The notes below the pieces were generated by a model. The model saw only the letters and a list, made by a program, of their open reading frames with translations. It ran no database searches and was not told the origin of the DNA. Shown here piece by piece: positions 29,794-40,796 of a stretch of 64,000 bases of DNA (the first letter of the stretch is position 1; each line of letters opens with the position of its first letter). The translations under genes and the position numbers were made by a program. This stretch comes from Solimonas fluminis (GTDB lineage Bacteria; Pseudomonadota; Gammaproteobacteria; Nevskiales; Nevskiaceae): assembly GCF_002930645.1 (NCBI RefSeq), contig NZ_PSNW01000010.1:281-64280 (forward strand), written 5' to 3'.

Positions 29794-29862
29794 AGGAGCG
29801 GCCGTTGCCGCGATACGGAGACTGTCATGGGCATGCCGCCCACGCGGCCAACGGCCGCTCCT
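29794..29862. repeat. Large inverted repeat, REP-like, between convergent genes
   Basis: Two arms (29794-29812 and 29843-29862) match as inverted copies except for one extra base, with about 30 bases between. The outer end reads GTAGGAGCGGCC on the minus strand, which resembles the head of repetitive extragenic palindromes in Pseudomonas. It sits between the convergent PTPS and TonB-receptor stops, where such elements often lie, and could act as a two-way transcription end. No second copy was found in the window. Confidence 0.55.
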
Positions 29863-32398
29863 ACGGCATCTGCCACTCGAGCAGCGCGCCAAAGCTGCGT
29901 GGCTCGCCGTAGCGGCTGGCCAGGCGGCTGCCGGCCACCAGCGCACCCTGGTCGTTGAGTTCGCCGGTCAGGTTGCGTCCGTAGACCGCCAGCGTGAAGC
30001 CGGCCGGCAGGGCATAGCCCAGCTTGGCGTTGACCAGCACGCGGGCGTCGGCGCGCGAACGCGGGTCATTGTCCGGGTCGCTGTGGAAGGAGCCGATATA
30101 GTTGGCGGCGAGCTGCCCGCTGACCCGCTTCCATTCCCGCAGGGTCAGGCCGATGCCGGCGGTCTGGCGCGGGGCGTAAGGGAACTCGTTGCCCCGGTAG
30201 TCCTCGTCGTCGGCATCGCTGGTGTCGCCGTCGCCATTGAGGTCGTTGCCGAATTCGTCGAACTCGCTGCGCAGCAGGCCGAAGGTGAGGAAGGCCTCCA
30301 GCGGCCCCTGCAGCTTCCACAGCAGCTCGGCTTCCAGGCCGTAGTAGTGCGAGCGTCCGGCGTTGGTGGTGTAGGTGGCGAAGCCGGAAGTCTCGCCGAT
30401 GGTGACCTGCTGGTCGCGCCAGCGGGTGTAGAACAGGTTGGCGTTGAGCGTCAGCCGCTCCTGCAGCCAGCGTGAGCGCAGCGACAGTTCCACGGTCCGG
30501 GTGTACTCCGGGTCATAGGGACTGACCGCCCCGCCGAAGAAGGAGATGCTGGTGCCGCCGGAGCGGTAGCCCTCCTGGTAGGTGAGGCCCAGAGAACTGT
30601 CGTCGGTGGCGAACCAGGTCAGGCCGGCCTTGGGCAGCAGGTCGGTGAAGCGCGTGTCGTTCCTTTCGTCATAGTCCGGCGGTACGAGACCGGAGGCGGC
30701 AGCGGCCAGAACGTCGGCCAGCGGATCCAGCACCGGGATCACGATGGGCAGCGGCAGGGGAACCTGAGGAGGGGTCGTGAGGCTCAGGTCGAGCTGGCTG
30801 ACGTCGTGGCGGCGGGCGCGCTCGCGGTTCAGGCGCAGGCCTGCGGTGAGTCTCCAGGCCTCGGCGAAATCCCAGTCGGCTTCGGCGAACAACGCGGTGG
30901 TGCGGGTGCTGGCGTCGGAGTCGATGGTGCCGTTGAGCAGGGCGATGCCGCCGCCCGCGGCGACATCGTATCCGGTGGTGTTCTTCACCACGTCGGATCC
31001 GGCGTAGTAGAGACCGGTGACCGCCTTCAGGCGCGGGCGCGAATAGCGCAGCCGCAGCTCCTGGCTGAGGATTTCCTCGTCCTCGGTGTTGTCGGAATAG
31101 CCGCCCTCGGCGGCGCTGCGGTCGTAGTCGATCGTGTACAGGTTGGACAGCTTCGACCAGCCGCTGATCGCCTCCAGGCTCCAGCGCCGGCTGAAGGCAT
31201 AGCTCTGCTCCAGGCTGTGCAGTTTCGTGCTCACGTCCTCGTTGGGCCGGACATTGGAGGTCTCCGTGCGGTCGCCGCCGGAGGAGTCGTGGAAGGGATC
31301 GCCGTATTCGTTGTCCGACTCGGTGTAGCCATAGAGAGCCTGGTAGCCGGGCAGGGCCTGCGGCAACCAAGCCAGGCGCGCCCGGGCGTTACGCGTGCGC
31401 TCGCGCTGGGCGTCGTCCTCGTTGCGCGTGGTGTTGACCACGTCGCCGTTGTCGTAGCGGTCCTGCGTGGCGATGCGGAAGCGCAGCGTGTCGGTGAGAG
31501 GGCCGCCGCCGGCCAGCGCGTAGTCGTGACCGTCGCGGCTCATCAGGCCGGCGCGCAGGCGGAGGTCCCAGTCCTCGGTGGGTTCGACGGAGCGCAGCAC
31601 CACCGAGCCGGCCAGGCTGTTACGGCCCTGGTTGGTGGACTGGGCGCCGCGCAGGATCTCGACCTGCTCCAGGTCCCAGGCCGACAGCGGTCCGGCGAAG
31701 GCGCCGGCGCGCGACGGCAGGGCCACGCCGTCGAGATAGACGCTGATGGTGTCGCCCTGGCCGCCGATGCCGCCCTGCGGCACGCCGCGGATGGCGATGG
31801 CGCGGTCGCCATCGGCCGATACGACGTTGGCGAACTGCGTGACCACGTCCTTCATCGACGCATCGCTGCTCGCCCTGAGGTCCTCCCGGGTGACGATGGC
31901 GACGCTGCTGCTGGTCTCGGCCAGCGAGCGGCCCAGCTTCTCGCCCGTGACGACGACCGGCGCGAGCTGCACCGGCAAGTCCTCGCGCAACTCCGGCATG
32001 CGCCGCTCTTCCTGCGGCAAGGGGATGGTCGGCAGCGTCGATTCGGCCTCGGCGTTCCGGGCCAGGACGGGCGGCGGCAGCAGCGAGGCGGCGAGGGTGA
32101 CGGCGATGTAGGAGACCGGCGCGAGGAAGCGCCGCAGCCGTCGCGGCTGCAGGCGGCGCAGCGCCAACCCCAGGCGCAGCGTGGCAACCATGGCGCCCTG
32201 GGCGAGCGCGTGACGCAGCCATAGCTCGGGCAATGCGGCAGGGCCTGCGGCCGCGTTCCACAGGGCCAGCGCGGCGGCATTCAGCAGCAGCAGTGCGAGG
32301 AGCCACTCGCAGCGGTTGGACGCTTCGGTGCGTCGCGCGAACAGGTGATGCAAGGCGATAGCCGCCAGGGCGATCTGCAGCGACGCCAGCTGGTCCAT
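29861..32398 (-). CDS. TonB-dependent outer-membrane receptor with membrane N-terminal extension
   Basis: 845 residues. The plug domain starts near residue 145 (APVVVTGEKLGRS, then SSVAIVTREDL) and contains ISVYLDGVALPSRAG and VEILRGAQSTNQGRNS; a 22-strand-type barrel follows and ends in EWQMP, without a terminal Phe. The first 112 residues are unusual: two or three hydrophobic helices precede a signal-like stretch (RRFLAPVSYIAVTLAASLL, then PPPVLA). A good ribosome site (GGGGGAAG) supports the distal ATG 32398; Met70 is an alternative start. A near-consensus Fur box lies about 50 bases upstream, so iron control is likely. The ligand is unknown. Confidence 0.88.
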   Translation of the reverse strand: MDQLASLQIALAAIALHHLFARRTEASNRCEWLLALLLLNAAALALWNAAAGPAALPELWLRHALAQGAMVATLRLGLALRRLQPRRLRRFLAPVSYIAVTLAASLLPPPVLARNAEAESTLPTIPLPQEERRMPELREDLPVQLAPVVVTGEKLGRSLAETSSSVAIVTREDLRASSDASMKDVVTQFANVVSADGDRAIAIRGVPQGGIGGQGDTISVYLDGVALPSRAGAFAGPLSAWDLEQVEILRGAQSTNQGRNSLAGSVVLRSVEPTEDWDLRLRAGLMSRDGHDYALAGGGPLTDTLRFRIATQDRYDNGDVVNTTRNEDDAQRERTRNARARLAWLPQALPGYQALYGYTESDNEYGDPFHDSSGGDRTETSNVRPNEDVSTKLHSLEQSYAFSRRWSLEAISGWSKLSNLYTIDYDRSAAEGGYSDNTEDEEILSQELRLRYSRPRLKAVTGLYYAGSDVVKNTTGYDVAAGGGIALLNGTIDSDASTRTTALFAEADWDFAEAWRLTAGLRLNRERARRHDVSQLDLSLTTPPQVPLPLPIVIPVLDPLADVLAAAASGLVPPDYDERNDTRFTDLLPKAGLTWFATDDSSLGLTYQEGYRSGGTSISFFGGAVSPYDPEYTRTVELSLRSRWLQERLTLNANLFYTRWRDQQVTIGETSGFATYTTNAGRSHYYGLEAELLWKLQGPLEAFLTFGLLRSEFDEFGNDLNGDGDTSDADDEDYRGNEFPYAPRQTAGIGLTLREWKRVSGQLAANYIGSFHSDPDNDPRSRADARVLVNAKLGYALPAGFTLAVYGRNLTGELNDQGALVAGSRLASRYGEPRSFGALLEWQMP

Positions 32399-32504: not shown

Positions 32505-33467
32505 ATGCCCACGATCCGGAACGCCCTTGTCCTTGCCCTGAGCCTGATGGCGGTGGCCTGCGCCACCACGTCCATGCCACCCGCGACGGCAACGGAAGGG
32601 GACCCGGAGCGTGACCGCCGCGCGATCCTGGCGATGGCCGGCGAGTACGAGGTGCATTTCCGCTTCGACGAAACCGTGGCGCTGCAGCCCGGCTACAAGC
32701 GGCAGGAGCCGCACCTGACCGGCGGCCATGAGTTCGTGGAGGTCCTGGAGGACAGCCCGCGTCGGATCGTGCTGCAGCATGTGCTGGTGGACGGATCCGG
32801 CCATGTGACCAAGCACTGGCGGCAGGACTGGGAGTACGAGCAGACCCGGTACTGGGGCTACGCCGGCGACTACGCCTGGGAAGTGCGCCGCGCCGGCCCG
32901 GAGCAGGCGCGCGGGCGCTGGCTGCAGACGGTCTGGCAGGTGGACGACAGCCCGCGCTACGCGGCGCTGGGGCGCTGGACGCATCAGGATGGCGTGTCCA
33001 GCTGGGCCTCCGACCGCACCTGGCGGCCGTTGCCGCGGCGCGAGCACACCACGCGCGGCGACTATGACGTGCTGGACACCTGGAATCGCCAGACGCTGAC
33101 GCCCGCCGGCTGGGTACACGAGCAGGACAGCCTGAAGCTGGACCGTAAGGCGGAGGGTGGTCCGCGTGCGCTGGTGCGCGAGCGCGGACTCAACACCTAC
33201 ACGCGGGTGCAGGGTTACGACTTCGGGCCCGGCCGCGAGTACTGGCGCAAGACCCGCGCCTACTGGGCCGCGGTGCGCTCGGTCTGGGCGGAACTGCTCG
33301 CCCGGTACCCCCGCGTGGCCCTGCGCGAGGAAGTGGACGGGACGCCGCACTACATGGCCGTGATGGCGCAGGCCAACGACCTGGCGAACCGGCCCCTGTC
33401 CGACGAACAGCGCCGCGCCGCCGTGCGTGAGGCGCTGGAGCCTTATCTGGTGCTGGGAAAACCTTAG
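32505..33467 (+). CDS. DUF6607 family lipoprotein
   Basis: 320 residues. Signal peptide ending MAVAC, a lipobox-like site, so probably a lipoprotein. The body carries DUF6607-type sequence: EYEVHFRFDETVALQPGY, HEFVEVLEDSPRRIVLQHVL, VTKHWRQDWEYEQ and RGLNTYTRVQGYDFGPGREY. The function of the family is unknown. Members tend to lie beside TonB receptors, as here, which suggests a part in metal or ligand uptake. Its stop overlaps the stop of the convergent M28 gene. Confidence 0.82.
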   Translation: MPTIRNALVLALSLMAVACATTSMPPATATEGDPERDRRAILAMAGEYEVHFRFDETVALQPGYKRQEPHLTGGHEFVEVLEDSPRRIVLQHVLVDGSGHVTKHWRQDWEYEQTRYWGYAGDYAWEVRRAGPEQARGRWLQTVWQVDDSPRYAALGRWTHQDGVSSWASDRTWRPLPRREHTTRGDYDVLDTWNRQTLTPAGWVHEQDSLKLDRKAEGGPRALVRERGLNTYTRVQGYDFGPGREYWRKTRAYWAAVRSVWAELLARYPRVALREEVDGTPHYMAVMAQANDLANRPLSDEQRRAAVREALEPYLVLGKP

Positions 33468-35131
33468 CGTTCTTCCAGGCCGGAGCGCAGCACGCCGGCC
33501 GGCTCGTTGCCCAGGTTGAGGATCATGCGCACGAAGGCGCCGACCTGCGCATGCATCAGCGGGTAATCGGTGAACTCGCTGGTGACGCGTGGGATGCCGA
33601 AGTTGAGCAGGTACACCGGACCGGTGATGTACTGGATCATCGGCAGCCCCGCATCGTTGCGGTAGGCCTGGCCTTCGCCGAAGGGCAGCACCGGAGGAAG
33701 CACGATGCTGCGGTCGAACTGCTGCGACAGCAGGATGCTCTCTCGCTCGAATGCCGCGCCGAAGGGCGTGACGATCACCTGCGGCTCGTTGAGCCCGGTG
33801 AGACCCATGACGCCCGGGGCGATTTCCAGCCACTCGCGGGCGCCGACGTGCTCGATCTCGATCGCCGCGAGCACCTTCTCCTGCAATTCGTCGTGGTGTT
33901 CCTCGATGTAGTGGCCCAGGCCGCCGCCGCCGAAGTGTCCACCGCTGAACACCACGCGCAGGCTGCGCTTGCGCTGCGCCTGGGGGATGCGGGTGAAGTA
34001 GCGCATGATCCCGAGGATGGCCGCGGGACCGTTGTCCTCGATGGAGTTGGTGCCGTCCGTGTGCGAGCTGAGCACGATCTCGAGTTCGCTGGCGCCGGGC
34101 AGCACGGCGACCACGTTGTAGGCCTCCACGCTTTCCTCGAGGGCATGCAGCGTCAGCCGGGCCGGCTTGGGTGAGAGCGGGTTGGCCAGCAGGCGCTGCT
34201 TCAGCGCGGCGCCGGTGTCGCGGTCCAGGTAGACCGTGGGCGAGGCCGGCAGGAAGCGCGCGAAGAAGGGGTAGTAGGAACCCTGCGCGGCCTCCAGGGG
34301 ATAGTCGACGATGCCGACCGCTCCGGCGGCGCCGGCGGCCTTCAGCGCGGTGGTGACCACCTGCGCCACCACCATGTCGAGGAAGGGGCGCGAGAAGGGC
34401 GTGGTGAAACCCATGGTGCCGGCATCGTCGGTCACATGCAGGGCGATGCTGCTGAGTACGCCGATGGGGATCGTCAGCCGCGGAAGGTCGTAGACCACGA
34501 TCTTGCCGCGCACGTCCGCCGCGGCGAGCAGGGAGACGATGGAGGACAGTCCGCTGGCGGTATCGCCGAGCAGGGATACCAGCGACTGCACCAGCCCGAG
34601 GACGCCGCCGGCGAGGGCGCCGCTGTCGAGCATGCGCACGACGACATCGGTCAGGTCCACGGCGGCCAGGCCCGGGACATAGACCAGCGGGCCTTCCAGG
34701 CCTTCCGCCCCGGTGTTGCCGGAAAAGGGAATGTAGGACACCAGGGGGACGTCTTCCGGGGACTCGCCCCACAACAGTTCGAGCTGGGCCTTCTGTGCGA
34801 CCCAGCGGTCGACCGGATAGGGTTCCAGGCGCACGTCGGGTACGCCCATGCCCCGCAGCTGGCTGGCAAGGCGCTGGGCGTAGGCGATCTCGGCGACGCT
34901 GCCGGCCGGACGGAAGCCGTTGTCGAAGCGGTCGATCTCGTACTGCCAGCCGCGCACCTGCGCCAGCGTCGGCATCAGCTTCGCGTCGAACTCGCGGCTA
35001 TGGTCGATGCCCGGGGTGCCGCCGTTGCCGCCCTCGACGGGCTGGCTGCTGCCGCAGCCGGCGGCCAGGAGCAGGCCGGCGGCGGCCATTGCAAGGCCGG
35101 CTCCGCGGGCCAGGCGCAGGGAAAGACTCAT
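33464..35131 (-). CDS. M28-like peptidase, exported lipoprotein
   Basis: 555 residues from ATG 35131, which has GGAG upstream; the longer open frame lacks support. The N-terminus MSLSLRLARGAGLAMAAAG runs into LLLAAGC, a clean lipobox. A PA-like insert appears to interrupt the M28 catalytic fold. Metal-ligand-like residues are His-Thr-Asp in LSSHTDGTNSIEDNGPAA, then SGGHFGGGG, IEIEHVGAREW and a late His in TDYPLMH. The usual M28 Glu-Glu pair is replaced by Gly-His, so the activity is uncertain. The upstream palindrome is shared with the CocE-hydrolase region. Probable extracytoplasmic peptidase or a related hydrolase. Confidence 0.8.
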   Translation of the reverse strand: MSLSLRLARGAGLAMAAAGLLLAAGCGSSQPVEGGNGGTPGIDHSREFDAKLMPTLAQVRGWQYEIDRFDNGFRPAGSVAEIAYAQRLASQLRGMGVPDVRLEPYPVDRWVAQKAQLELLWGESPEDVPLVSYIPFSGNTGAEGLEGPLVYVPGLAAVDLTDVVVRMLDSGALAGGVLGLVQSLVSLLGDTASGLSSIVSLLAAADVRGKIVVYDLPRLTIPIGVLSSIALHVTDDAGTMGFTTPFSRPFLDMVVAQVVTTALKAAGAAGAVGIVDYPLEAAQGSYYPFFARFLPASPTVYLDRDTGAALKQRLLANPLSPKPARLTLHALEESVEAYNVVAVLPGASELEIVLSSHTDGTNSIEDNGPAAILGIMRYFTRIPQAQRKRSLRVVFSGGHFGGGGLGHYIEEHHDELQEKVLAAIEIEHVGAREWLEIAPGVMGLTGLNEPQVIVTPFGAAFERESILLSQQFDRSIVLPPVLPFGEGQAYRNDAGLPMIQYITGPVYLLNFGIPRVTSEFTDYPLMHAQVGAFVRMILNLGNEPAGVLRSGLEER

Positions 35132-35258
35132 GTTTTCTCCTCGGGGGGCTGTCCTGGTCGCCGTGGCGGCACTGGCCGCAGGACCGGCAGGCCCATGTCT
35201 AATCCGCGAAGTGTGCCGCCGGCAGCCCGCTGCCGCCATTGGCCATGTCACAAGCACT

Positions 35259-35276
35259 TTTGTGGTCTGGCACAAA
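35259..35276. promoter_or_regulatory. Shared palindrome TTTGTG-N6-CACAAA, copy 1
   Basis: TTTGTGGTCTGGCACAAA lies between the divergent M28 lipoprotein gene (start 35131) and the VOC-ankyrin gene (start 35391). A second copy with the same arms and the same 6-base spacing stands at 37955-37972. The pair suggests one regulator acts at both places. The spacing is two bases shorter than a CRP site (TGTG-N8-CACA), so CRP is not a good explanation. Confidence 0.6.
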
Positions 35277-35390
35277 AACGGCATCGATTTGTCAGCGGCC
35301 GCTTTTTCGTGCAATCGTGTCAGGTTGAAGACATAAAAATGGCTGCATCTGCCGTTCTGCAGCCGCGTGAGTCGTCTCTTCGGGGGATTT

Positions 35391-36542
35391 ATGGGGGCCA
35401 AGCTATTCCGGATCGTGATCCCGGTATCGGGACTGGACCAGGCCGCGCGCTTCTACGGCAGCCTGCTGCTGGCGGACGGTTTCCGCGTGCCGCCGGCCAG
35501 CCACAGCTTTCCGCTGGGCCAGGCCCTGCTGACCTGCTACGACGCCCGGGTCGACGGTGAGGCAGTACTGCCCCCGTCGCCGCAGGCGATCTATATCGGG
35601 GTGGATGAAAACCTGATGCAGCTGCGGGTGCGGGCGCTGCAGATGGGGGCGACCGAGGTCGATGCCGAGCCCCGTCGCATGCCCGCAGGCGAGGCAGGAC
35701 TGTGCCTGACCGATCCCTGGGGCAACCGCCTGGCGATGGTCGATGCCCATACCATGCAGTGGGGTGCTCCCGCGCCTGCCTTCCGCGCGAAGGAAATGGT
35801 TGCCTCGCCCCAGCAGGGCGTGCTGCTGCTGCGGCAGGATTTCCTCAACGCGGTGAAGGGTGGCGAGTTCTCGCGCGTGAAGGAACTGCTGGCCCTGGAC
35901 CACGACCTGATCGATACGGTCGACAACACCGGGGCCTCGGTGCTGCTGGTGGCCGCCTACAAGCGGCATGAGCGTGTCGCCGCCTACCTGCTGGCCTTGC
36001 GCGACGAGCTGAATCTCTGCGAGGCGGCGGCCATGGGTGCGATCGAACCCCTGGCGACCCTGCTGCGCCGCCATCCCGAGCAGGTGAACCTGCCGGGCGC
36101 CGATGGCTTCCTGCCGCTGGGCCTGGCCTGTTTCTTCGGGCATGGCGACTGCGTGGACCGGCTGCTGCAGGCCGGCGCCGACCCCAACGCCGTGTCGCGC
36201 AACAACATGCGCTCCCATCCGCTCAACAGCGCCCTGACGCAGACCTCCCAGGAATGCGCCCTCGGCATTGTCCATCGACTGCTTCGCGCCGGCGCACGGC
36301 CCGATGCGGCACAGGTCTCCGGGCACACGGCACTGCACCAGGCCGCGGGCCGGGGTTTCCTGGAGGCGGTGGACGTGCTGCTGTCGGCGGGCGCCAATCC
36401 GGATCTGCGGGCCGACAACGGCGCGACCCCGGCGATGCTGGCGCGCCGGGCCGGACATGTCGCGGTGCTGGAGCATCTCCGGGCGCACGAGCAGGGGCGG
36501 CGCCCGGCGGTCGATCCCTTTGCCGAGACCCTGATGTTCTGA
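35391..36542 (+). CDS. VOC (glyoxalase-like) domain fused to ankyrin repeats
   Basis: 383 residues. Residues about 1-122 form a glyoxalase/bleomycin-resistance (VOC) domain: FRIVIPVSGLDQAARFYGSL at the start and GLCLTDPWGNRLAMVDAH at the end. Residues about 145-370 hold five or more ankyrin repeats, e.g. DLIDTVDNTGASVLLVAAYK, GLACFFGHGDCVDRLLQAGA and HTALHQAAGRGFLEAVDVLL. No signal peptide is seen, so it is probably cytoplasmic. The fusion suggests a small-molecule sensor or enzyme with a protein-binding arm. ATG 35391 with GGGGGA upstream was chosen over GTG 35367. A 7-bp hairpin (35341-35364) lies in the leader. Confidence 0.85.
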   Translation: MGAKLFRIVIPVSGLDQAARFYGSLLLADGFRVPPASHSFPLGQALLTCYDARVDGEAVLPPSPQAIYIGVDENLMQLRVRALQMGATEVDAEPRRMPAGEAGLCLTDPWGNRLAMVDAHTMQWGAPAPAFRAKEMVASPQQGVLLLRQDFLNAVKGGEFSRVKELLALDHDLIDTVDNTGASVLLVAAYKRHERVAAYLLALRDELNLCEAAAMGAIEPLATLLRRHPEQVNLPGADGFLPLGLACFFGHGDCVDRLLQAGADPNAVSRNNMRSHPLNSALTQTSQECALGIVHRLLRAGARPDAAQVSGHTALHQAAGRGFLEAVDVLLSAGANPDLRADNGATPAMLARRAGHVAVLEHLRAHEQGRRPAVDPFAETLMF

Positions 36543-36593
36543 GCGGGGCCGCTTCTCCGGCGCGACTCCGGAGCGTTGCGCGCCGCGCGACGG

Positions 36594-37868
36594 CTACACG
36601 CTGTCGGCGCGACCCATGCGCCGCATCAGCAGCGCGGCGCTGAGGCGCGATTGCCAGGACAGATCGTCCAGGTCGGCCTTCAGCAGCGTCTCGATGCGCT
36701 TGAGGCGATAGCTCAGGGTGTTGGGATGGATCTGCAGGGTGGCGGCGACTGCCTTGCGCTGCTGCCGCTGCAGGAAATAGCTGTCCAGTGTCTCCAGCAG
36801 GTGCGGCTCCGGGGCGATCAGCTCCAGCAGCCCTTCCAGGTAGCCGGCGACGTTGCGCGACTGCAGGGCAGTGTCGTCGAGCACGTAGTCGGAATAGCGG
36901 AACTGCCGGCCGCGCGTCGCCAGGCGCCGTCCGATGTCGAGGCCGCGCAAGGCCTGTTCCGCGCTCAGGTGCCAGCCGCGGGCGCCGGTGCCGGCAAGCC
37001 CGATGCCCACGGGTTGCGGGTGTCCGCGCAGCGCCGGCAACTGGCCCAGCTGCGTGGACAGGCGGCGCTCGTGGCGGATCGCGTTCTCGCCGCCGGGTAC
37101 GGCCATCCAGATCACCGCGTGCTCGCGCCACAGCGTGCCGATGGGGCGCGGCTCGTCGCGTACGGTCAGGGCGCGCATCAGCGATTCCAGTTCGTCCTCG
37201 GCGGCGCTGCGGCTGCCGCCGGGGGAGGTCTTGGCGAAAGCCAGCGCGATGCGCCGTCCCAGGGGGTCGGCGCCCAGCGCCAGCGCCCGTTCGCGGAATC
37301 CCTCGGCGTCGTCGGGGCGGTCGAAGACGATGGAGCACAGTTCGTGCTGCAGGCGACTCTGCCAGCGTTCGCCGCGGCGCTGCTCGTCGACGTAGGCATG
37401 GCTGATGGTCTGACCGAGCAGGTCGGTGTGGTACATCATGTAGGGCGAGAGCTTGAGCAGCACCTCGTCGCGCAGTTCGTGGCGGTGCTGCACGCCGTCG
37501 AGAAAGGCCTGCCACAGCACCGTGCTGCCGACGCGGAAGGAATGCAGCAACCCGGTCAGCGCGATGCCCTGGTGGAAGCGCCGGCGGGCGAAGTCCGCCA
37601 CCGGCTTGAGCATCTCGGCATCGGGCGAGCGCCCACCCAGCAGGGCGCGGAACCAGATGTCGACGTTGATCCGGATCATGGTCTCGACTTCCTGAACCAC
37701 GGCCGGATCGCGGATCGCGGCGTACTCCGGCACGTCTTCCCGCACCGTGGCAAAGACGCGCTGCACGATGGTCTCCGCACGCTGCGACAGTGCCCGCACC
37801 TCCGGCGCCATCCGCCGTGAAACCGCCGGGACGGCCGCGCCATCGCGCGGCCGGGCTGCCTTGCTCAT
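36594..37868 (-). CDS. PucR/CdaR-type transcription regulator
   Basis: 424 residues from ATG 37868, with GGAGGAG upstream. The C-terminal PucR-type helix-turn-helix is clear (LETLDSYFLQRQQRKAVA, then LQIHPNTLSYRLKRIE). The middle resembles the GGDEF-like fold of CdaR regulators, and the N-terminal part (about 25-170) is an all-alpha sensory region of unknown ligand. It lies between the VOC-ankyrin gene and the divergent CocE-type hydrolase. The palindrome at 37955 lies 87 bases before its start, so self-regulation and control of the hydrolase are plausible. Confidence 0.88.
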   Translation of the reverse strand: MSKAARPRDGAAVPAVSRRMAPEVRALSQRAETIVQRVFATVREDVPEYAAIRDPAVVQEVETMIRINVDIWFRALLGGRSPDAEMLKPVADFARRRFHQGIALTGLLHSFRVGSTVLWQAFLDGVQHRHELRDEVLLKLSPYMMYHTDLLGQTISHAYVDEQRRGERWQSRLQHELCSIVFDRPDDAEGFRERALALGADPLGRRIALAFAKTSPGGSRSAAEDELESLMRALTVRDEPRPIGTLWREHAVIWMAVPGGENAIRHERRLSTQLGQLPALRGHPQPVGIGLAGTGARGWHLSAEQALRGLDIGRRLATRGRQFRYSDYVLDDTALQSRNVAGYLEGLLELIAPEPHLLETLDSYFLQRQQRKAVAATLQIHPNTLSYRLKRIETLLKADLDDLSWQSRLSAALLMRRMGRADSV

Positions 37869-37954
37869 CTGCCGTCTCCTCCATATGCGCCCGGTCTTTG
37901 CCGCCGGGCTGACCCTTGTATAGCACGGGGCGCCGCCGGGCAGGCCGCCCTGCC

Positions 37955-37972
37955 TTTGTGCCGCGGCACAAA
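37955..37972. promoter_or_regulatory. Shared palindrome TTTGTG-N6-CACAAA, copy 2
   Basis: TTTGTGCCGCGGCACAAA is a perfect 18-bp palindrome in the divergent space between the PucR-type regulator (start 37868) and the CocE-type hydrolase (start 38095). It shares both arms and two of the centre bases with the copy at 35259-35276. It is a strong candidate operator for the adjacent regulator. Confidence 0.68.
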
Positions 37973-38094
37973 AGCAGCCGTGAACCTGCCAATGGCGCTG
38001 CCGCAGGGCCGCCGCGAAGATGGAGCCACGACATATACGCGTCCGCGAAGGGCCTGCCGGCCCTCGACGGCTGCGAACGCGAGGAGAGACCAAC

Positions 38095-40038
38095 ATGCTG
38101 GACGCATTGGCGCGCCTGCGCCCGAGGGGTGTTTTGCTTTTTGCATGGCTGTGCCTGGCACTGGCGCAGCCCGCGGCGGCCGAAGTGCGTCGCCAGGGCT
38201 ACATCACGCTGCGCGACGGCGTGAAGCTGCACTACAACCTGGCCTTGCCGGACGAGCGGGGCAGTTTCCCCACGGTATTCATCTATGACCCCTATGAGGC
38301 CGGCGCCGCTCGCAACGGGCCGGTGACGCGGCCCTACGTGACCTCGTTCTGGGCGCAGCGCGGCTATGCCGCCATCGGCGTGAACATCCGCGGAACCGGC
38401 TGCTCGGGCGGGACCTTCGTCGCCGAGGATGCACCGCAGTGGGGGCGGGACGGTGCCGAGGTGGTGGACTGGATCGCCGCGCAGCCCTGGTCCAATGGCC
38501 GCGTCGGCATGTTCGGCATCTCCTTCACCGGCACCTCGCAGTTCGCGGTGGCGGCACTGGCGCCAACGGCGCTGAAGGCGATCGCGCCCTGGCAGGTGTT
38601 CCCGGACTTCTACCGCGACATGGCCTATCCGGGAGGCATCTACAACAGTGTCTTCGTCACCGGCTGGGGGCTGCTGTCGCGGCCGCTGCTGCAGTCTTCG
38701 GGCGCCAATGCCGAGGCCCTGGGAGACCCGCAGTGCCTGGCCCACATCCTGCAGTCGCTGCTGCCGAATACCGCCGCCAATGTCGGCCTGAACATGCTGC
38801 TGCATCCTTACCGCGATGACTACTGGTCGCGCGATCCCTCCACGATGCTGCCGGCCGTGCGCCTGCCGACACTCGGTTGCGTGACCTGGCAGGACTCCAC
38901 GGTCACCAGCCGCGCCGCCGATCTGTTTGCCGAGGACCTGCCGCGGGACAGCACCTGGCTGGTGGCCAACAACGGCCTCCACGGCGGCTGCGCAGTATCC
39001 GAGGACATGCTGATGCGCTTCTACGGCCGCTATCTCAAGGCAGAGGCGAACGGCTGGGAGCGCACCCCCAGGCTGACCCTGCATCACGAGGTGCCGCCGG
39101 AAGGCGATGCCGGCATCGAGCGCTGGACCTCGCCGGGCCGCCCGGCCTGGACCACGAGCCATGATCGCTTCGACGGCGGCGTGCAGCCGCTGCGCCTGCG
39201 GCTTCAGCCGGGTGGCCGGCTGGACCTGGAGCCGGTGGCGGCGAAGGAGACGGTCGAGCGCTACCTGTATCCCTCGGTCTCGGCGAATACGGCCTACGAC
39301 TGGCTGGCGGCCTTCAGCCGCTGGGGATGGCCCCAGCTGCCGGGTACGGTGCTGAACTACACCACGCCGCCGCTGGAGCAGGATGCCGAATTCCTCGGCT
39401 CCGGCAGCGTGGAACTGTGGATGTCCACGCCGGGCACCGACGCCGACGTGCAGGTGACGCTCAGCGAGGTGCGGCCCGACGGGCAGGAGATGTACATCCA
39501 GAACGGTTGGCTGCGCCTGTCGCACCGCCACGAGGATGCGGCGCGCTCGACGCCGCTGCGGCCCTGGCACACCCACCGGGCCGCGGACGCCAGGCCGCTG
39601 GTGCCCGGCGAGCCGGTGCTGGCGCGCATCCCGATGCTGCCGTTCAACCACGTGTTCCGCGCCGGTTCCTCGATCCGCCTGGCCATCGATACGCCGAACC
39701 TCGACCACGGTGCCCGCCCGGTGCCGGCAGTGCATGCCGTGCACCTGGGCGAAAACCATGACTCGACGCTGGTGCTGGGCTGGCTGCGCGGCGCGCGTGC
39801 CGGCGCTGCGCTGCCCGGCTGCAACGCGGTGCAGAGCCAGCCCTGCCGCCAAGACCGGGTCGGCGTGCCCGAGGGACGCCTGAGGCTGGAGGCCTCCGGG
39901 GAGCCGGCGGCCGGCGGCTCCGGTGGCGGCGTCTTCGGTCCCTCGATGTTCGTCTTGCTGATGGCGGCGCTGCTGTGGCGCCGCCGGAGCCACGGTCCCT
40001 TCGTGGGGATGCCCGGGGCGCTTCGCCGCCGGGATTGA
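38095..40038 (+). CDS. CocE/NonD-family hydrolase with GlyGly-CTERM-like anchor
   Basis: 647 residues. A Sec signal (LLFAWLCLALAQPAAA) is followed by an alpha/beta hydrolase domain with the nucleophile Ser143 in MFGISFTGTSQF and His in NNGLHGGC. The C-terminal CocE/NonD jelly-roll begins near EFLGSGSVELWMST and includes FRAGSSIRLAID. The tail is notable: Gly-rich GGSGGG, a hydrophobic stretch (FVLLMAALLW), then RRRS. This is the layout of GlyGly-CTERM sorting signals cut by rhombosortase, so the enzyme is probably surface-attached or secreted. Family members hydrolyse esters or acyl-amino-acid bonds. ATG 38095 follows GAGGAGAG. Confidence 0.87.
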   Translation: MLDALARLRPRGVLLFAWLCLALAQPAAAEVRRQGYITLRDGVKLHYNLALPDERGSFPTVFIYDPYEAGAARNGPVTRPYVTSFWAQRGYAAIGVNIRGTGCSGGTFVAEDAPQWGRDGAEVVDWIAAQPWSNGRVGMFGISFTGTSQFAVAALAPTALKAIAPWQVFPDFYRDMAYPGGIYNSVFVTGWGLLSRPLLQSSGANAEALGDPQCLAHILQSLLPNTAANVGLNMLLHPYRDDYWSRDPSTMLPAVRLPTLGCVTWQDSTVTSRAADLFAEDLPRDSTWLVANNGLHGGCAVSEDMLMRFYGRYLKAEANGWERTPRLTLHHEVPPEGDAGIERWTSPGRPAWTTSHDRFDGGVQPLRLRLQPGGRLDLEPVAAKETVERYLYPSVSANTAYDWLAAFSRWGWPQLPGTVLNYTTPPLEQDAEFLGSGSVELWMSTPGTDADVQVTLSEVRPDGQEMYIQNGWLRLSHRHEDAARSTPLRPWHTHRAADARPLVPGEPVLARIPMLPFNHVFRAGSSIRLAIDTPNLDHGARPVPAVHAVHLGENHDSTLVLGWLRGARAGAALPGCNAVQSQPCRQDRVGVPEGRLRLEASGEPAAGGSGGGVFGPSMFVLLMAALLWRRRSHGPFVGMPGALRRRD

Positions 40039-40152: not shown

Positions 40153-40536
40153 ATGCCAGCGGATTCGTCCTACACGCGCCTGCTCTTCGGCACGGCGATG
40201 CTGTTCAATCTCGTGGTCGCGGCCGGGCTGCTCACCTCCAGCGCACAGATCGGAGCGGCCCTGGATCTCGGCGCGGCCACGCCCGGCAGCGTGGTGCTGT
40301 CGAACCTCTCCGGCGCGTTCGTGGCCCTGTTCGCCTACGCCTATGCGCGCGTTGCGCTGGAGCCGCAGCGGTATCGCGCCTACGTGGAACTCGGTGCCAT
40401 CGGCAAGCTGCTGGTGCTGCCGGCCGCCGGCATTCCCCATGTCCTGGGCTACATCGGCTGGGAATTGCCCTTGCTGGCCTGCGGCGACCTGGTCTTTGCG
40501 CTGCTGTTCTGGGACTGGCTGCGCCGCACGCGCTAG
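40153..40536 (+). CDS. Small four-helix membrane protein, unknown function
   Basis: 127 residues with four hydrophobic stretches (LLFGTAMLFNLVVAAGLL, VLSNLSGAFVALFAYAYA, LGAIGKLLVLPAAGIPHV, PLLACGDLVFALLFW). No family motif is recognised with confidence. ATG 40153, eight bases after GGGGG, was preferred to starts at 40117 and 40132. It stands alone, convergent with the small membrane gene downstream; the stops overlap by four bases. Confidence 0.7.
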   Translation: MPADSSYTRLLFGTAMLFNLVVAAGLLTSSAQIGAALDLGAATPGSVVLSNLSGAFVALFAYAYARVALEPQRYRAYVELGAIGKLLVLPAAGIPHVLGYIGWELPLLACGDLVFALLFWDWLRRTR

Positions 40537-40796
40537 AGCCGCAAGCTCACCGACGCCAGCAGCATCAGCATCAGCAGCAGCGGTACCGGCAGGCTGATCC
40601 AGAAAGTAGCACTGGCGCGGGGCGTTGCGCGTGCCCGCGCGAAGTTGACGATGGCGGTGACCGGGATCGCCCAGACTCCGAGCAGCATCGCGGCCAGGCC
40701 GACGAAGGAGCCGTTGCCCCGCGTGGCGAACATCACGAACAGGGTGAGCGCGACCTGCAGCACTGCGGGCAGCCCGACATGGAGCAGGTATTTCAC
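40533..40796 (-). CDS. Small membrane protein coupled to patatin
   Basis: 87 residues from GTG 40796, with about three hydrophobic helices (VLQVALTLFVMFATRG, GLAAMLLGVWAIPVTAIV, LPVPLLLMLMLLASVS). The GTG overlaps the patatin stop as GTGA, so the two proteins are translationally coupled. No family is recognised. The coupling suggests a membrane partner for the phospholipase, but that is inference. Confidence 0.7.
   Translation of the reverse strand: MKYLLHVGLPAVLQVALTLFVMFATRGNGSFVGLAAMLLGVWAIPVTAIVNFARARATPRASATFWISLPVPLLLMLMLLASVSLRL

Follow-up and report, generated by a model that had tools for sequence, protein, structure and literature searches.

Which regulator reads two copies of the same palindrome that stand between divergent genes of Solimonas fluminis, and which genes does it serve? 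The two sites lie in a 64,000-nucleotide stretch of contig NZ_PSNW01000010.1, hereafter the window, whose positions are used throughout. They face four genes, which encode an M28-like lipoprotein, a fusion of a VOC (glyoxalase-like) domain with ankyrin repeats, a PucR-type regulator, and a CocE/NonD hydrolase of family S15. Comparison of sequences makes it highly probable that the palindromes are operators of the PucR-type regulator encoded between them, and that the M28-like, VOC-ankyrin, and S15/CocE-type genes which they face form, together with pucR, a local regulon. A local regulon with its own regulator had been proposed in the first-pass annotation of this DNA, and the proposal stands: across genera the site goes with pucR, and it is absent at eight gene starts of M28-like and VOC-ankyrin relatives that have no PucR neighbour.

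Two palindromes between divergent genes

Operator 1 (TTTGTG-N6-CACAAA, positions 35259..35276, no strand assigned) is located between the divergent M28-like and VOC-ankyrin genes, 127 bp from the start of the former and 114 bp from that of the latter. Operator 2 (37955..37972, likewise without strand) is located between the divergent PucR and S15 genes, at 86 bp and 122 bp from their respective starts, so that both sites occupy divergent promoter regions as first annotated. The sequence of operator 2, TTTGTGCCGCGGCACAAA, is a perfect palindrome over all 18 bp, while in operator 1, TTTGTGGTCTGGCACAAA, the symmetry is confined to the 6-bp arms, or 7 bp when the flanking T/A is counted. Both sites match TTTGTG-N6-CACAAA without mismatch, and the window contains no third match with up to two mismatches (0.38 expected; two or more matches in 5 of 100 shuffles). 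The coordinates given in the first-pass annotation are thus exact, and its statements that the motif occurs nowhere else in the window and that the second site is a perfect palindrome hold.

In the whole genome (4,668,848 bp in 34 contigs), the exact pattern occurs twice, at the two window sites, where a first-order Markov model built on the window predicts 0.024 sites per genome. No exact copy of the reversed control pattern exists in the same genome. A genome-wide scan had been suggested in the annotation, and by this count the motif is not common in the genome. With up to two mismatches, the pattern gives 17 matches and the control 16; only the exact sites therefore carry signal, nothing points to a larger regulon, and we claim no further targets. 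The shorter core TTGTG-N6-CACAA is found in the S. fluminis genome at the same two places only (1.1 expected).

A survey of exact sites in 61 genomes (4 Solimonas and 57 others) revealed exactly two in each Solimonas genome, the window's own included, at orthologous places. All eight of these places keep the 12 arm bases and vary in the N6 spacer; the search itself required exact arms. Among the other genomes, 3 of 57 hold one exact site, the same number as for the control pattern. Beside these single sites, in G021, G032, and G038, lies no homologue of any of the four genes (tblastn, E 1e-5), and they are ascribed to chance. The site pair is real, conserved in the genus, locus-specific, and far above chance. 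That the palindromes arose by chance, or are a structural element such as a terminator or repeat, is refuted for practical purposes: single exact matches elsewhere do occur at the chance rate, but chance does not account for a pair of sites at orthologous places in each of four genomes or for the enrichment beside relatives of the regulator described below, and neither operator region contains a terminator-like site.

A motif that accompanies pucR

To follow the motif beyond the genus, an alignment of the PucR protein was scanned against 84,980 species genomes, and the best-scoring 78 loci (L095-L172) were used. The clade set comprises 32 of these (L095-L126), with at least 32% identity and a match over most of the protein. 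The clade test was carried out on 30 loci, with the Solimonas loci L095 and L096 and the distant loci L127-L172 excluded. The clade spans Nevskiaceae (Solimonas, Stagnimonas, Nevskia, and others), Marinobacter, Pseudomonas, Luteibacter, Dyella, Rhodanobacter, Pinirhizobacter, Sodalis, Burkholderia, Paraburkholderia, and Caballeronia, and one locus, L101, is labelled Verrucomicrobia.

At 18 of the 30 loci the core TTGTG-N6-CACAA, allowing a single mismatch in its ten bases, is found no more than 450 bp from pucR, whereas 200 rounds of shuffling gave 0.51 loci on average and never more than 3. Near pucR, 22 sites were counted in a nominal 27 kb, as opposed to 13 in the 271 kb located more than 1 kb away. 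When the loci are grouped by record title, a nearby site is present at 15 of 18 gammaproteobacterial loci versus 3 of 12 Burkholderiaceae loci, and the recognition code is accordingly well supported for the Gammaproteobacteria and weakly for the rest. The enrichment is specific to the spacing of the arms. A gap of 6 gives 21 sites and any other gap from 2 to 12 gives 0-2; in a wider window the counts are 26 (8 of them perfect) and 0-4, respectively. The Marinobacter locus L102 holds two perfect sites. Permuted arms yield at most 4 sites, except TGTGT at gap 4 (8 sites), which is another register of the same palindrome. When all 5-bp dyads with gaps of 0-16 were compared without the motif being supplied, TTGTG-N6 showed the largest excess, at 17 of 30 loci versus 1.25 expected. 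The counts of 17 and 18 loci, and of 21 and 22 sites, differ through slightly different window limits.

Additional members of the clade were sought in two samples. In a class-wide sample of 369 genomes no further PucR clade member was found at E 1e-50, so that the Gammaproteobacteria provide no hold-out members from this sample. In the family of L105, a match at E 1e-45 was obtained in five of 197 genomes, one of them that of L105 itself. Another of the five, G553, matches none of the five Rhodanobacteraceae loci compared. It has two pucR genes, and a single 9/10 site stands 73 bp behind one of them; the site is visible in both of its loci and was counted once. The genome that holds L105 (G450, Luteibacter) has three adjacent pucR-clade genes within about 4 kb (L197, L199, and L200), with 9/10 operator sites in both intergenic gaps, and the same arrangement is seen in G622. 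A possible link between the site and the recognition helix was also considered: all three loci with HPNS are without a site, but so are 9 of the 29 with HPNT, and the numbers are too few to support a claim.

The distant set consists of 46 loci (L127-L172) from actinobacteria, bacilli, and others. In 159 kb of these loci a gap of 6 is not outstanding, with no perfect and 8 one-mismatch sites; a gap of 7 gives 4 perfect sites and 9 in all, and other gaps give up to 8. In a narrower control, limited to the side before the match, with many matches starting inside the gene, one site was found at gap 6 and three at gap 7. Over the whole distant loci (555 kb), perfect TTGTG-N7-CACAA occurs 14 times, versus 0-4 times for the other gaps from 2 to 12, for instance at L132:5939, L139:4561, L144:4569, and L157:2287. 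This excess was noticed post hoc, it includes loci closely related to each other, and many of the sites are kilobases away from the match, which makes it a lead. The same arms at gap 7 near distant PucR genes tie the half-site to the protein family, which suggests a half-site common to the PucR family with a gap that differs between clades.

Closer to Solimonas, two Stagnimonas genomes (G011 and G022; genus g9) carry PucR (75-76% identity) with the M28-like gene (77-78%) next in line and in the same orientation. TTGTG-N6-CACAA lies between the two genes in both genomes, with CCAATGG at the 17-bp distance also seen in Solimonas, and the VOC-ankyrin gene is absent from these loci. No M28-like match was found at E 1e-30 in the three other g9 genomes of the five searched. 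Across 85 genomes of the order, a PucR relative is present in 11 (E 1e-40) and an M28-like relative in 14 (E 1e-30); the loci of the clade scan overlap the genomes of these searches, and the two are not independent. At seven loci without a PucR neighbour, namely six M28-like loci and the VOC-ankyrin orthologue in G009, none of the eight gene starts has a site of at least 9/10 (the starts are approximate, and for one only about 210 bp upstream were available). The site is thus kept beside PucR and absent at relatives of the M28-like and VOC-ankyrin genes that lack it, which indicates that it goes with PucR and not with the enzymes.

This distribution also bears on the idea that the palindrome belongs to another regulator, for example of the CRP/FNR or LysR type, which would control the cluster incidentally. 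TTGTG/CACAA arms do resemble many operators. A CRP-type site has GTG/CAC arms with a GTG-to-CAC spacing of 8, but the spacing here is 6; a global regulator would have many sites, but the genome has two; and the site follows pucR between genera. We consider such a regulator very unlikely, and PucR remains the preferred candidate.

The regulator and its mode of binding

The PucR-type regulator (36594..37868, minus strand; 424 amino acids) consists of a putative globin-like N-terminal domain, suggested by fold match, a GGDEF_2 domain (PF17853, 36.4 bits versus a cut-off of 24.5), and an HTH_30 domain (PF13556, 59.2 bits versus a cut-off of 27). It is the only protein of the genome above the HTH_30 cut-off, with five further matches below it. 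The N-terminal PucR domain PF07905 gives no Pfam match even at E 10; with a putative globin-like domain in its place, the protein is PucR-type in the HTH_30 sense only. In the structure model (pLDDT 75.9, pTM 0.51), the N-terminal domain gives target-normalised TM values of 0.79 to pXO2-61, 0.76 to 3zta, and 0.65 to RsbR, with E-values of about 1-2, and its likeness to non-heme globins is suggestive only. The C-terminal half matches MabR (9f80), which is both the best PDB sequence hit (2.2e-07) and the best fold hit (1.4e-04).

Few PucR-type regulators have been studied; a handful are listed in the 2020 paper on GabR (PMC7652997). MabR (Rv2242) of Mycobacterium tuberculosis shares the GGDEF-like and HTH C-terminal half, at about 20% identity, and its N-terminal domain is likened to non-heme globins (PMC11617747), which the modelled N-terminal domain of the present protein may resemble as well. 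In contrast, MabR regulates mycolic acid genes. Its three-part architecture is described as largely restricted to Actinomycetia (PMC11617747), and the present clade would place a MabR-like architecture in the Proteobacteria. The recognition helices of MabR are about one turn apart, and the protein forms dimers and tetramers (PMC11617747); the half-site centres of the palindromes here are 11 bp apart.

A GGDEF-like domain is found in about half of PucR-type regulators (PMC7652997). GabR of Corynebacterium glutamicum lacks it, recognises a 21-bp repeat, and targets an operon for GABA transport and metabolism; like the regulator proposed here, it is a local activator encoded beside its target, with two inverted-repeat sites that together bind more strongly (PMC7652997). 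Judged by comparison, the present PucR likewise appears to have an inverted-repeat operator beside its own target genes. PutR of Bacillus subtilis also has an inverted-repeat site, of 17 bp (PMC7652997), and serves proline utilisation. The comparison is one of length only: TTGTG-N7-CACAA is also 17 bp and possibly corresponds to a PutR-type site, with a gap of 7, not 6. CdaR (SdaR) of Escherichia coli is a relative through HTH_30 and controls a sugar-diacid regulon; its site had not been determined as of 2020 according to PMC7652997. The window protein scores 32.4 bits against the CdaR model, far below the cut-off of 612. TTGTG-N6-CACAA is absent from the three E. coli CdaR-regulon regions scanned. 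The regions upstream of cdaR and between garP and garD share the 14-mer CATTGTGCAAATGC, which holds a TTGTGC half-site. This 14-mer, found in E. coli MG1655 at L086:1810-1963 and L087:6909-7282 and not seen upstream of gudP, is a candidate CdaR site.

Next to each palindrome we observed a degenerate second copy of the operator on the side of the enzyme gene. The copy at operator 1, TTGTGACATGGCCAAT (35238..35253, minus strand), is 22 bp away and overlaps a conserved CCAATGGC element, which reads GCCATTGGC on the plus strand at 35235-35243. The copy at operator 2, CCGTGAACCTGCCAAT (37978..37993, plus strand), is also 22 bp away, matches 5 of the 10 core bases, and overlaps GCCAATGGC at 37988-37996. 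When the ten Solimonas and Stagnimonas sites are read towards the enzyme gene, the best mean offset is +22 bp, with 5.5/10 matches (offsets 10-59 scored). GTG-N6-CCAAT stands at +22 bp in 8/8 Solimonas sites, the 17-bp gap to CCAATG is kept in all ten Solimonas and Stagnimonas sites, and CCAATGG is present in nine of them. Alone, GCCAATGGC is not rare, with 7 places in the window, and only the fixed spacing matters.

In the clade as a whole, the two top-ranking offsets are 21 and 22, a result reached in none of 1000 shuffles (21 sites), and they retain P 0.002 (16 sites) when near relatives and the L098 pair are removed. That pair (L098:5892-5931) lies upstream of a pucR relative and consists of two 9/10 sites spaced by exactly 22 bp. 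The L098 locus also contains genes for galactose-oxidase-like and cytochrome-c-peroxidase-like lipoproteins, as judged by reading their sequences. Taken together, the fixed spacing suggests that the degenerate copy 21-22 bp away forms a tandem operator, which is less certain than the main palindrome. In G003, which is without the S15 gene at this locus, the neighbouring CCAATGGC element reads CCAATGCGC; such a change may be what is expected after loss of the served gene, and a single case proves nothing.

We postulate that a PucR dimer would bind each palindrome, with the half-site centres one helical turn apart, and that a second dimer would bind the weaker copy on the enzyme side as a dimer of dimers. 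The 22-bp spacing would place the two dimers on one face of the helix, for which the two-site binding of GabR and the dimers and tetramers of MabR serve as precedent. By analogy, PucR would act as an activator. Neither operator region contains a sigma-70 consensus promoter, and operator 2, at about -45 to -62 of the assumed pucR start, would be situated just upstream of the pucR -35 region, a common location for activator sites and a position like that of the GabR site at its target promoter (PMC7652997); both features point to activation. On the enzyme side, the second copy and not the palindrome is nearest the gene.

A candidate extended -10 box of pucR, TGCTATACA (37917..37925, minus strand), is unchanged in the four Solimonas genomes. 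It bears on the alternative that PucR represses these promoters, or both represses and activates them, with a ligand that releases rather than recruits it. B. subtilis PucR is both activator and repressor (PMC7652997), and operator 2 also faces pucR, so negative autoregulation is conceivable. The other studied regulators of this type named in that paper are activators, though, and operator 2 lies upstream of the candidate -10 box and does not overlap it. Together with the lack of a consensus promoter, this makes repression an unlikely reading, and we favour activation.

The weakest step of the proposed mechanism concerns the ligand, which might be a carboxylic or acyl product that the globin-like N-terminal domain senses, so that the surface proteins and the regulator would be induced by their own product. 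The sole grounds for this guess are the acyl- and lipid-type neighbours of clade members, described below, and the globin-like domain.

Several observations weigh against the reading outlined here. No site lies within 450 bp of pucR in 12 of the 30 relatives, 9 of them among the 12 Burkholderiaceae, and many clade loci are near relatives of one another, so that the counts are not independent. Two Nevskia genomes carry PucR (37-39%) and M28-like genes side by side with no recognisable site. The second copy is weak, with 4/10 matches in Stagnimonas and 5/10 at operator 2, and the set of controlled genes varies among relatives. Finally, activation and the nature of the ligand are suggested by family precedent alone.

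The genes served and their history

The M28-like lipoprotein (33464..35131, minus strand; 555 amino acids) carries a lipobox, LAAGC, recognised by eye. Structurally it follows the M28 fold, with a profile match to 3iib at 3.6e-15, and Pfam M28 matches 3 of the 14 aligned members, the window protein not being among them. In M28 metallopeptidases, the first glutamate of a conserved pair is catalytic and the adjacent one binds metal. Compared to enzymes of this fold (3iib, 2ek8, and PaAP), the pair aligns with H-[F/L/M] in all 14 members, the first glutamate being replaced by histidine and the second by phenylalanine, leucine, or methionine; in the window protein the catalytic EE is replaced by H-F. 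We therefore do not class it as an M28 peptidase. Residues H357, D359, E365, H399, E427, and H428 are invariant in the alignment, which implies that the M28-like pocket is under selection for something. The protein may be an altered hydrolase or a binding protein. The family is thus marked by loss of the usual catalytic residue together with a new set of invariant residues.

The predicted VOC-ankyrin fusion (35391..36542, plus strand; 383 amino acids) is encoded as a single reading frame in five genomes, which belong to two genera. PF00903 matches all five members at E 0.1 or lower; the window protein reaches 17.1 bits versus a cut-off of 20.6, and the match is clear in a relative (best 4.7e-08). 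No further relatives were found in the class-wide sample of 369 genomes at E 1e-30.

The S15 hydrolase (38095..40038, plus strand; 647 amino acids) has a PepX_C domain; inspection by eye also shows an export signal and a hydrophobic tail rich in Gly and Arg. It passes the CocE/NonD family profile TIGR00976 with 209.7 bits versus a cut-off of 66.3, matches PF02129 and PF08530, and has 3ib3 as its best PDB hit; the hydrophobic C-terminal tail appears to set it apart from the family. Neither the protein nor its tail matches TIGR03501 (GlyGly-CTERM), and the G002 orthologue reaches 14.3 bits versus a cut-off of 15.5, so the earlier label of a GlyGly-CTERM hydrolase falls away at the curated cut-off. 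The wider description as a secreted hydrolase fits the S15 protein well; in the M28-like protein the catalytic glutamate is missing.

All four Solimonas genomes keep the M28-like, VOC-ankyrin, and PucR genes at the locus, and two of the four keep the S15 gene. In the other two, G001 and G003, the palindrome before PucR is retained, and the best S15 relatives, 41-42% identical, lie elsewhere in the genome and contain a stop. The four genes are therefore not the fixed set that had been envisaged, given also the PucR-site-M28 arrangement of Stagnimonas; as judged from gene content, the core is PucR plus the M28-like lipoprotein. The first-pass annotation had read the four genes as one dedicated system, with VOC-ankyrin as a cytoplasmic sensor for secreted hydrolases. 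In two Solimonas genomes each of the four genes is faced by an operator, and VOC-ankyrin is kept in all four Solimonas genomes. Set against this are the missing S15 genes, the Stagnimonas loci without VOC-ankyrin, a VOC-ankyrin orthologue of another genus in a genome (79% complete) without a close PucR or M28 match, and the candidate sensor domain of PucR itself. We regard a dedicated four-gene system as quite improbable and prefer a PucR regulon with a variable set of targets.

The history suggested by synteny is one in which PucR, the site, and the M28-like gene would form the older core. Solimonas would have gained the VOC-ankyrin gene between them, as well as a second operator with the S15 gene, and two species would then have lost S15 or never had it. 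A g9 genome, L100, has a PucR relative with a 9/10 site 50 bp behind pucR and another 9/10 site about 180 bp before an S15-family lipoprotein gene. L100 is a second link between this predicted regulator type and putative S15 hydrolases. Other genes beside clade members include those for enoyl-CoA hydratase, CoA-transferase III, an acetoacetate decarboxylase-family protein, and acyl-CoA dehydrogenase (L112), 3-hydroxyacyl-CoA dehydrogenase (L120), MaoC and PhaC (L101), an S15-family protein (L100), and DUF1302/DUF1329 (L084). These ten proteins were picked by eye from gene lists and are no census; the predicted functions lean towards lipid, ester, or acyl-CoA use.

In its most general and quite tentative form, which we would sooner doubt than expect, the proposal is that the proteobacterial MabR-type clade shares one code, tandem TTGTG-N6-CACAA two turns apart, which in Nevskiaceae would drive surface hydrolases and the catalytically altered M28-fold lipoprotein when the globin pocket holds an acyl or carboxylic product. 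If true, TTGTG would be the ancestral HTH_30 half-site, with a gap that evolves, in view of the gap-7 half-site near distant PucR genes and the TTGTGC at the CdaR promoters of E. coli.

The locus is a local regulon of a known kind, and the motif shared with the regulator's relatives is the new part. We found no description of this operator or of a Solimonas PucR regulon in the open literature, a search that did not extend to the original PutR, AdeR, and CdaR reports, where a similar motif may have appeared; the text of PMC5343134 makes no mention of PucR, SdaR, or CdaR. The regulon can thus be called undescribed, as it had been, only as far as that search reached. PucR-type regulators are widespread and few have a known operator. 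A motif readable from genomes provides a testable recognition code for this poorly studied family, allows targets in the clade to be predicted, above all in Nevskiaceae, Rhodanobacteraceae, Pseudomonas, and Marinobacter, and supplies short DNA probes for binding tests.

Further features were noted around the locus. A 128-residue membrane-like protein without a family match (40154-40537) adjoins the locus in all three relatives too, conserved at 50-63%, and in G001 and G003 it directly follows the site-2 region. G037, which belongs to a different family within the order, has a distant M28-like gene next to and divergent from an S15 hydrolase gene (41%) at L062:8193-11844; no PucR gene was found there, and the two enzymes are paired independently. 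Lastly, the first approximately 118 residues of the TonB receptor at 29861-32398 match a separate stretch in relatives (L025, L026, and L027) at 42-56%, and the remainder matches further on at 84-89%. Next to DUF6607, L025 and L027 seem to have one more receptor-like stretch, as would follow from a fusion in the window gene or the deletion of a neighbour.

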